Shown in pieces: positions 19,445-23,377 of a stretch of DNA of 64,000 bases (position 1 is its first letter; the number at the start of each line of letters is the position of its first letter). A program made the translations under genes and the position numbers. This DNA comes from Heterostelium album PN500 (Eukaryota > Evosea > Eumycetozoa > Acytosteliales > Acytosteliaceae): the NCBI RefSeq assembly GCF_000004825.1, contig NW_008805063.1:1860857-1924856 (forward strand), written 5' to 3'. The notes beneath the pieces are model-generated. The model was not told the DNA's origin. It was given only the letters and a program-made list of their open reading frames with translations, and ran no database searches.

Positions 19445-19900
19445 TAACAAGTGAATTATTTCAAAGTTATTTTATCGAAAGACCACGCATAGTTTGTTTA
19501 ATTGTATTGGTAATGTTTATAGTCGAAGGACGTAGTTAGTGAAATGGTTCATTCGTGGACCTTCACTACTTCGACCCGGGTTCGAGGGTCGGTAATGACT
19601 AAGTTTCCCCGCTACCGGAACGTATATAATAAAACTGATGTCCTAAGAGCCCATGGGGCAATACATTGACACCAACTCGTGAGGAGGTGATAAAAAACAC
19701 CTCCTTAGTGCAATGGACCTAAAAAAAAAAAAAAAAAAAGTAATGTTTATTATGTCTTTGAACTTGAGCCTGATATTAACCAAACTGATTATTTCATTAT
19801 TTCATATTCAATCCTTAATGGTGAGGAAAGTGTTAGTACCCCGATGATAAATGGTGAATTATCTATTACTTTTCAAATTTTATCTTCGAGGTTCTTTTAA
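19445..19900 (+). pseudogene. fragment of the secreted-protein family, split by a SINE
   Basis: GTGAATTATTTCAAAGTTAT to GTATTGG, and after the insertion TATTATGTCTT to AATGGTGAGG, match exon 1 of the intact gene at 22286-23377 almost base for base. The signal-peptide end and everything beyond intron 1 are missing. The exon 1 donor GTAAGT is changed to GAAAGT. It is therefore an old 5'-fragment copy. The SINE at 19521-19739 sits inside it, and with one target-site copy removed the flanks realign exactly to the intact gene. Confidence 0.8.
19521..19739 (+). mobile_element. tRNA-like SINE with A tail and 11-bp target-site duplication
   Basis: The 219-base element is flanked by direct repeats GTAATGTTTAT at 19510-19520 and 19740-19750. 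Near its 5' end TAGTGAAATGG (19537-19547) fits the pol III A box TRGYNNARNNG. GGTTCGA (19579-19585) is a B-box core, and GACCC/GGGTC around it form a T-arm-like stem. CTTCAC lies where an anticodon loop would be, suggesting a tRNA-Glu or similar ancestor. The 3' part is unrelated to tRNA, has a 7-bp hairpin (GGAGGTG/CACCTCC) and ends in 19 A residues. Structure, duplication and tail are those of a LINE-mobilised SINE. Its G+C content stands out from the surroundings. I know of no named dictyostelid SINE to assign it to. Confidence 0.82.
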
Positions 19901-22285: not shown

Positions 22286-23377
22286 ATGGGTCTTTCTTTT
22301 TCATTTTTAATAATATTATTGTTATCTATATTTCTATCTTTGAGAATAGATTCTACAGGTGCGCAACCAACTATACTGAGTTGTACTGAAATCAACTTCA
22401 CATCAATTAGCCTGACCACTGGTGAATTATTTCAAAGTTATTTTATCGAAAGACCACATATTGTGCATAGTTTGTATAATTGTATTGGAAATGACTATTA
22501 TGTCTTAGAGCGTGGACCTGATAATTATCAAACTGGTTATTTCAATATTTCAATCCTTAATGGTGAGGTAAGTGTTATTATCGTAATGATAACAAAATAA
22601 AAATACTAATCTCTATTCAATGATAACAATTTGAACTCATATAGACAGGTACATTTACAACCAAAGCAAGATTCTATTTACCTGAAGATCCAGACTTTGT
22701 ATATCAATACAACAGTATAGATCTTCCAAATGGATTAGCATTCGCAACTTATTGTCCTTCTAATATGTCAATACTAACAATATTTGATATGAACTCTCAA
22801 ACTGCGTAAGATAGATCGAAATACAATCACCTTAAATCAAATCCATTTTATTAATATTAACTTATTACACAGTGAAACAATAACAACAGAAAATAGTTGT
22901 GAATTATATGCTTTTGGAGCATATGATACTACAAATCAACTTTATTATCTGTATGGTTTTCAAACAGGAACACTTTCATCTTTATCATTTGGAGTGTATT
23001 CCATGATCACCAAAAAATTCACATATTATGAGATACCATTCCAAATGCAGCATTGGTCATATGTTCAAAACATTTTCGTCTATCAATCAACAGTGTATGT
23101 TGGTCTCTTCCAGAACACATACTACCAAGTTCTCATTGTTGATTTTAATACAAATTCAACACGTAGCATCTTCAAAAATGATATTGTTAACGACGACACA
23201 TATATTCAGTTTGTTTTTGATCCATCTGGATATATAGTAGTAATTGTGCCCTATGAAGAAATTTTTACGACCTATACAATCGATCTCCAGACAGAACTAT
23301 ACACCACTAAAACAATCCCAAACAATGCAAGAAAACTAGGACTCTTTTTCGGCGGTAATATGTTTTGTGCTCAATAA
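22286..23377 (+). CDS. small secreted protein of a local tandem family
   Basis: A 315-residue protein in three exons (22286-22567, 22645-22805, 22873-23377). MGLSFSFLIILLLSIFLSLR begins a signal peptide that ends near DSTGA. The mature part has few cysteines, is rich in Tyr, Phe, Thr and Ile, and has regular short strands (YYQVLIVDFNTNSTRSIF, YTIDLQTELYTT), suggesting a beta-sheet or propeller-like secreted fold. It ends NMFCAQ. I do not recognise the family. Two decayed copies flank it (19445-19900 and 24161-24878), so the unit was tandemly duplicated. It is divergent from the lipase and 711 bases from it. Intact frame and clean splice sites point to a working gene. Confidence 0.8.

Follow-up and report, generated by a model that had tools for sequence, protein, structure and literature searches.

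tRNA-derived poly(A) SINEs of the rodent B2/ID type combine a tRNA-like head containing a B box with an unrelated body, a poly(A) end and target-site duplications (TSDs), and they insert at loose TT/AAAA sites. SINEs are usually thought to scatter widely. Some LINEs of social amoebae behave otherwise. Targeting of the TRE3 type places insertions in sense orientation 40-150 bp behind tRNA genes (PMC5911963). For Heterostelium album the accessible part of the table of PMC5006619 has only two TRE3 rows, Pp_TRE3-A (4515 bp, 10 copies, 26-138 bp downstream of tRNA genes) and Pp_TRE3-B (4741 bp, 11 copies, 57-151 bp downstream of tRNA genes). Skipper-2 LTR elements occupy the same tRNA-downstream niche (PMC5006619). 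An amoebozoan LINE-SINE pair with TSDs, EhSINE1/EhLINE1, has been described in Entamoeba histolytica (PMC2996970). RepeatMasker 'SINEs' have been tabulated for Dictyostelium discoideum (88) and D. purpureum (57) and are not described in the accessible part of that source (PMC4683709), so we do not claim that no SINE was ever reported in dictyostelids. The literature searched, from which Repbase and most subscription journals were absent, contained no description of the family reported below or of any pol III-gene-targeted SINE, and the accessible main text of PMC5006619 contains no word beginning with 'sine'.

The element studied here lies in a 64-kb stretch of H. album DNA (the window), which gave no Rfam match at gathering cut-offs. 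Its parts are listed in Table 1. A first-pass annotation made from the letters alone had described an 11-bp direct repeat, a T-arm-like stem, a 3' hairpin and a tail of 19 A, and all of these are present in the window copy. The repeat is exact, and none of 300 random placements within the locus reached 11 bp, the best attaining 10 bp; the T-arm stem contains one mismatch. An A box and a B box had been placed about 42 bases apart. Both blocks were found, the A-box-like one by eye and inside the stretch aligned to the D-arm region of tRNA-Glu, and the distance between them is 46 bases from start to start. At 219 bp, the element is too short for an APE or RT domain and is no TRE3 element itself. 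The copy at G000:C17:1165355, which is associated with a tRNA-Leu gene, is 99% identical to it.

Table 1. Features of the window copy and its empty site (window positions), and neighbourhoods of the other SINE copies and of LINE pieces
Feature	Position, distance or locus	Strand or orientation	Basis or remark
Gene fossil hit by the insertion, aligned portion	19451..19850	+	alignment to paralogue
Full-length SINE copy	19521..19739	+	219 bp including A tail
TSD, 5' copy, GTAATGTTTAT, 11 bp	19510..19520	+	exact repeat
A-box-like block TAGTTAGTGAAATGG	19533..19547 (about)	+	by eye; putative pol III promoter
B box GGTTCGAGGGT (GGTTCGAGGCT elsewhere in the family)	19579..19589	+	inside T-arm-like hairpin 19576-19592
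3' hairpin AGGAGGTG-N8-CACCTCCT, directly before the tail	19682..19705	+	sequence, folding
A tail, 19 A	19721..19739	+	sequence
TSD, 3' copy, GTAATGTTTAT	19740..19750	+	exact repeat
Uninterrupted paralogue segment (empty site)	22422..22592	+	alignment to fossil
tRNA-Leu end to SINE	77 bp	sense	
tRNA-Val end to SINE	65 bp	sense	
tRNA-Lys end to SINE	57 bp	sense	
tRNA-Glu end to SINE	77 bp	sense	
Intron-bearing tRNA end to SINE	71 bp	sense	anticodon GTA by eye, read as Tyr
tRNA-SeC end to SINE	79 bp	sense	
tRNA-Gly end to SINE	59 bp	sense	
RNase P RNA end to SINE	49 bp	sense	
Class I RNA ends to SINE, four loci	44, 31, 22, 60 bp	sense	
SINE loci without a detected sense pol III gene within 160 bp upstream, eight	window, C30:584809, C12:320458, C16:183281, C10:1921569, C27:165150, C11:1476372, C7:250455		
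LINE pieces behind tRNA genes	L030, L039, L041, L042, L047, L050, L051, L055	sense	

A search of the organism's own 32.9-Mb genome with the window SINE gave 23 matches of 79-100% identity. These correspond to 21 loci on 13 contigs, as each of two pairs of matches (C30:231799 with C30:232198, and C30:372580 with C30:372665) comes from a single SINE. Every locus was examined with its flanks, read in element orientation. The number is a lower bound, as old diverged copies may be missed; no additional locus emerged when the genome was queried twice more, once with an old copy and once with just the SINE head. Five other loci are 97-100% identical to the window copy over at least 136 bases, and other copies have older differences in common. 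Exact TSDs of 11-18 bp, all different, were found in seven of the eight copies tested, and each of them surpassed all 300 random placements. The eighth, the SINE at L014, has a 7-bp TSD that is no better than chance (15 of 300 random placements). A scripted TSD search found none for L012, L015, L017 and L019-L024 (L025-L027 lay outside that run); at L019 an imperfect TSD is likely by eye. Truncated copies begin at about positions 45, 58, 81-87 and 119 of the element.

Because flanks, TSDs, tails and 5' truncation differ among the 21 loci, this dispersed unit of about 200 nt plus tail, devoid of coding capacity, is a SINE family, and the window element is confirmed as a member of a low-copy SINE family of H. 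album (Polysphondylium pallidum). The first-pass annotation had proposed a SINE in a dictyostelid and, as a check, a genome search for scattered copies that end in A tails and are flanked by duplications of their own; both the proposal and the check were borne out. A single-copy curiosity is ruled out by the 23 genome matches, and a duplication of tRNA regions by the different tRNAs and the different TSDs. At L011 (1551-1566, minus strand) the SINE ends in GCGGTCCATTGCGCTC and not in GCAATGGACCT; this short inversion of the 3' end is of the kind that a template slip would leave.

With the rodent B2/ID type the family shares the tRNA-like B-box head, the unrelated body, the poly(A) end and the TSDs; it differs in its low copy number (21 loci found) and in being strongly site-directed. 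EhSINE1 is unlike it, being 500-600 bp long with internal repeats, and pol III gene targeting is not reported for it in the accessible part of PMC2996970. The TRE3 elements (Pp_TRE3-A and Pp_TRE3-B, and TRE3-A of D. discoideum) resemble it in their sense niche behind tRNA genes, their A tail and their TSDs, and the two Pp_TRE3 elements reside in the same genome; full-length TRE3 elements measure several kb and contain ORFs (PMC5006619), against about 200 nt for the SINE, and no common sequence was found. Skipper-2, an LTR chromovirus, has the same niche and a different copying route (PMC5006619).

The description of the element as tRNA-like was upheld in a weaker form. Against 28 tRNA sequences of H. 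album (part of the full tRNA set, several being near-duplicates), the SINE head matched tRNA-Glu(UUC) best, with a score of 45.5, and none of 1000 dinucleotide shuffles scored as high (maximum 44.0); in a smaller comparison with 22 tRNA sequences its score of 41 equalled the maximum of 300 shuffles (41). Most of this likeness is carried by the T-arm, as the head without it was not significant (178 of 1000 shuffles), and the Rfam tRNA model gave no match on copy L009 even at E 10. These comparisons support a relationship of the head to tRNA, at a modest level. An ordinary tRNA pseudogene is ruled out by the lack of any ARAGORN or Rfam tRNA call. In seven other copies the B box in the T-arm-like hairpin reads GGGTTCGAGGCTCGG, and seven copies match GGGTTCGANNCCCGG with one mismatch. 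The SINE contains no internal TTTT, which is uninformative since 613 of 2552 200-nt stretches of the window also lack it. The 3' body of L009 folds better than its shuffles (z -3.36, 0/200), mainly owing to the hairpin before the tail; three SINE heads fold at z -1.95, -0.98 and -0.52. An RNAalifold consensus of 18 copies comprised 11 pairs, none with a compensatory change, so that variation among the copies does not test the pairing.

The window copy interrupts a gene fossil whose uninterrupted paralogue lies in the same window. When the element and one repeat were removed from the fossil, no gap was left at the junction, and the alignment score was 232.5, versus 130 with the element kept. 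The alignment had been called exact, which is too strong: three of the 11 repeat bases differ in the paralogue, and gaps of 7 bp and 6 bp lie about 23 bp upstream and about 60 bp downstream, respectively. The proposed relative date stands, since the paralogue is without the element and its empty site aligns; the SINE insertion is thus younger than the gene duplication.

Genes upstream of the SINE copies were searched with ARAGORN and Rfam on 20 fetched stretches, some of which were also searched with Rfam at permissive thresholds. Twelve of the 21 loci, 11 of them firm, have a known or probable pol III gene ahead of the SINE in the same orientation, with 22-79 bp between the two; these genes encode seven tRNAs, the RNase P RNA and four class I RNAs (Table 1). 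Assuming 3000 pol III genes, the probability of finding at least 10 of 21 copies within 100 bp is 1.3e-18. Among the examined loci no copy was found within 100 bp of a pol III gene in any other arrangement. A thirteenth copy is separated from an upstream class I gene by 157 bp that include a LINE-1 end. The remaining eight loci had no sense upstream pol III gene within 160 bp, seven being searched to E 10 and C16:183281 at gathering cut-offs only; divergent tRNA genes have their 5' ends 205 bp from C16:183281 and 697 bp from C27:165150. The seven tRNA-linked copies, at 57-79 bp, fall within the TRE3-like range of 40-150 bp sense downstream. The SINE had at first been set apart from the TRE elements that target tRNA genes, and this must be revised for the family, 12 of whose 21 copies occupy the TRE3 niche. 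The window copy does not; as an off-target insertion of recent date within a decayed gene, it is an exception to the pol III-gene niche.

Class I RNA genes 'may be' pol III genes (PMC7919456). Clear class I genes have a CCATAA promoter motif 65-67 nt upstream, and the motif is present at three of the four class I genes hit by the SINE; in the background it occurs in 16 of 4266 30-mers from both window strands. The 22-bp case scores 38.2 bits, below the Rfam cut-off, yet has CCATAA 66 nt upstream, and the 60-bp case (L027), at 32 bits and without the motif, is weak. Four class I RNA genes lie within 9.3 kb at L026, each with ACCATAA beginning at -67 or -68. At L025 (1696-2026, minus strand) the H. 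album RNase P RNA gene (99.7 bits) is followed by a SINE head and then by a LINE-1 fragment.

At the seven tRNA targets a B box with 0-2 mismatches lies 79-101 nt before the SINE. At each of the four class I targets, nothing in sense within the 250 nt before the SINE comes closer to the B box than 4 mismatches in 9 positions. This is within the background, since among 1000 stretches the best match has 3 mismatches in 521 cases and 4 in 398. The RNase P target has a match with 2 mismatches, and 66 of 1000 background stretches have 2 or fewer. Because the class I targets are no better than background, a B box is not needed at these sites, and the simplest reading is that targets are recognised via TFIIIB or pol III. 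That SINEs also sit behind RNase P RNA and class I RNA genes suggests the pol III machinery, rather than the B box of tRNA genes, as the cue. These hits also support pol III transcription of the class I RNAs, which the wording of PMC7919456 ('may be'), in its accessible part, leaves open.

Candidate partner LINEs were collected by an RVT_1 search, and 30 of its 40 matches were compared by nucleotide sequence. They include LINE-1 (six copies), LINE-2 (two long copies and fragments) and LINE-3. LINE-1 is about 4517 bp long here, and its ORF2 matches PPL_10798 of H. album PN500 at 100% identity over 97%; a second H. album protein match, 'Pol', has 50% identity. One LINE-2 copy, L077, lies on C27, and the one on C11 begins about 55 bp behind a tRNA-Lys gene. 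Judging by length and position, LINE-1 is probably Pp_TRE3-A and LINE-2 Pp_TRE3-B. TSDs were also seen around four LINE insertions, three of LINE-1 and one of LINE-2, whose flanks have 12-19 bp in common, with A-tail letters included in some. Long LINE-1 copies are 97-99.9% similar, the long LINE-2 pair 99.2% and the single long LINE-3 pair compared 91%; short LINE-1 and LINE-2 pieces are also diverged (86-100% in own-family matches).

We further inspected 30 tRNA-centred loci. They are the top tRNA matches by score, chosen regardless of LINEs, and Lys, Asn and Thr tRNAs predominate among them. Eight of them have a LINE-1, LINE-2 or LINE-3 piece in sense beginning 47-75 bp downstream (Table 1), and further LINE pieces lie at other distances. 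Antisense LINE ends occur at +38 (L044) and +57 (L032), and SINEs at +58 (L052) and far upstream in antisense (L058). The truncated copies of LINE-3 (L075) at L039, L042 and L047 begin about +47 to +57 behind the tRNA genes.

A BLAST comparison of the SINE with the fetched LINE loci gave no match at E 1 and no 3' sequence in common, and on this ground the idea that the SINE took its tail from that of a LINE is rejected. As no such match links the two, the partner has to be deduced from position, the A tail and one fusion. Nor does the niche alone name the machinery, because Skipper-2 LTR elements use it too; an LTR route for the SINE is disfavoured by its A tails and by the 5' truncation of its copies. 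The earlier suggestion of a LINE that accepts poly(A) as the likely partner agrees with the A tails, the TSDs and the TRE3-type niche, through which mobilisation by such a LINE may be deduced.

The fusion was found at L023, where a LINE-2 3' UTR (90% identity) is joined directly to SINE positions 93-219 and an A tail, with no LINE-2 directly after the SINE part. A TSD of the fusion was looked for and not found. The arrangement is as expected if target-primed synthesis began on SINE RNA and then changed to LINE-2 RNA as template; an insertion followed by a deletion could also have produced it.

Several loci combine SINE and LINE by nesting. At L016 a SINE 71 bp behind a tRNA gene, with the TSD AACCTTTTGACTCT, contains a LINE-3 end, accompanied by an 8-bp repeat that was noted by eye, and at L026 a LINE-2 end lies within a SINE behind a class I gene; in both cases the host SINE is itself behind a pol III gene. 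At L014 the SINE tail is followed within 50 bp by the start of a full-length LINE-1, whose own TSD begins 34 bp behind the tail, and no other sense pol III gene was found near this pair. A LINE-1 end abuts SINE position 190 at L020, in antisense. These cases suggest without proving it that the SINE itself is a landing site. At L016 a 349-bp stretch (1550-1898) that splits the SINE has no match among the other fetched loci.

We consider it highly probable that a pol III-transcribed SINE is mobilised by proteins of TRE3-type LINEs and thereby inherits their targeting of pol III genes. The unit of about 200 nt would comprise a tRNA-Glu-like internal pol III promoter, a 3' hairpin and a poly(A) end, and pol III would make from it an RNA of about 200 nt starting at GTCGAAGG. 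This RNA would be reverse transcribed at the target by proteins of LINE-1 and/or LINE-2, acting in trans. TRE3 proteins may home on pol III genes, tethered via the pol III machinery, and the SINE would land 22-79 bp behind these genes in sense because TRE3-type proteins home there. If so, a SINE passenger borrows the safe-site strategy of a LINE beside pol III genes in a compact haploid genome, and offers a short natural RNA for learning what TRE3 proteins recognise. More tentatively, the SINE could both sense and add to the pol III landscape, following assembled pol III/TFIIIB, while each SINE becomes a landing pad for the partner LINE; as class I genes are hit like tRNA genes, targeting would be by pol III/TFIIIB and not by the B box.

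The partner might instead be another LINE of the same niche, for example LINE-3, alone or together with TRE3, which we regard as unlikely. LINE-3 pieces begin at +47, +54 and +57 behind three of the 30 tRNA genes, and one LINE-3 end sits inside the SINE of L016. The sole fusion found, however, is with LINE-2, and the long LINE-3 pair is 91% similar as opposed to 97-99.9% for LINE-1, 99.2% for LINE-2 and 97-100% for the SINE, a comparison that makes a weak argument. It is less likely still that the SINE was moved by a LINE without target choice, its tie to pol III genes reflecting the survival of harmless insertions in a compact genome. Such survival would account for the eight of 21 copies, including the window copy, that are not adjacent to a detected pol III gene; it would preserve copies between genes irrespective of strand or distance, whereas the 12 adjacent copies all lie in sense, 22-79 bp away, none within 100 bp is otherwise arranged, and pieces of LINE-1, LINE-2 and LINE-3 occupy the same interval. 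The internal B box of the unit and its vicinity to tRNA genes might suggest a dispersed family of pol III RNA genes, or a duplicated block from the flanks of tRNA genes, in place of a retroelement, but this is scarcely credible in view of the different TSDs, the A tails, the graded 5' truncation, the varied neighbours and the empty site in the paralogue.

Two further observations concern the surroundings of the tRNA genes. Recurrent sequences starting with TGTGGAAC or TGTAACAAGAT were seen at L009, L010, L024, L037, L038, L040 and L049, mostly downstream of tRNAs; they look like LTR ends by eye and are Skipper-2-like by position, and some SINEs lie in or at them. In addition, 26 of the 30 best-scoring tRNA genes (L029-L058) have a palindrome or a near variant 21-37 bp downstream, with a GCGCGC or GCATGC core (CCGGATGCGG, CGCTTGCGG). 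The two strict cores were present downstream of 23 of the 30 tRNA genes, upstream of none of the 30, and in 1 of 1066 60-mers of the window; this palindrome is possibly an external pol III element or a boundary element.
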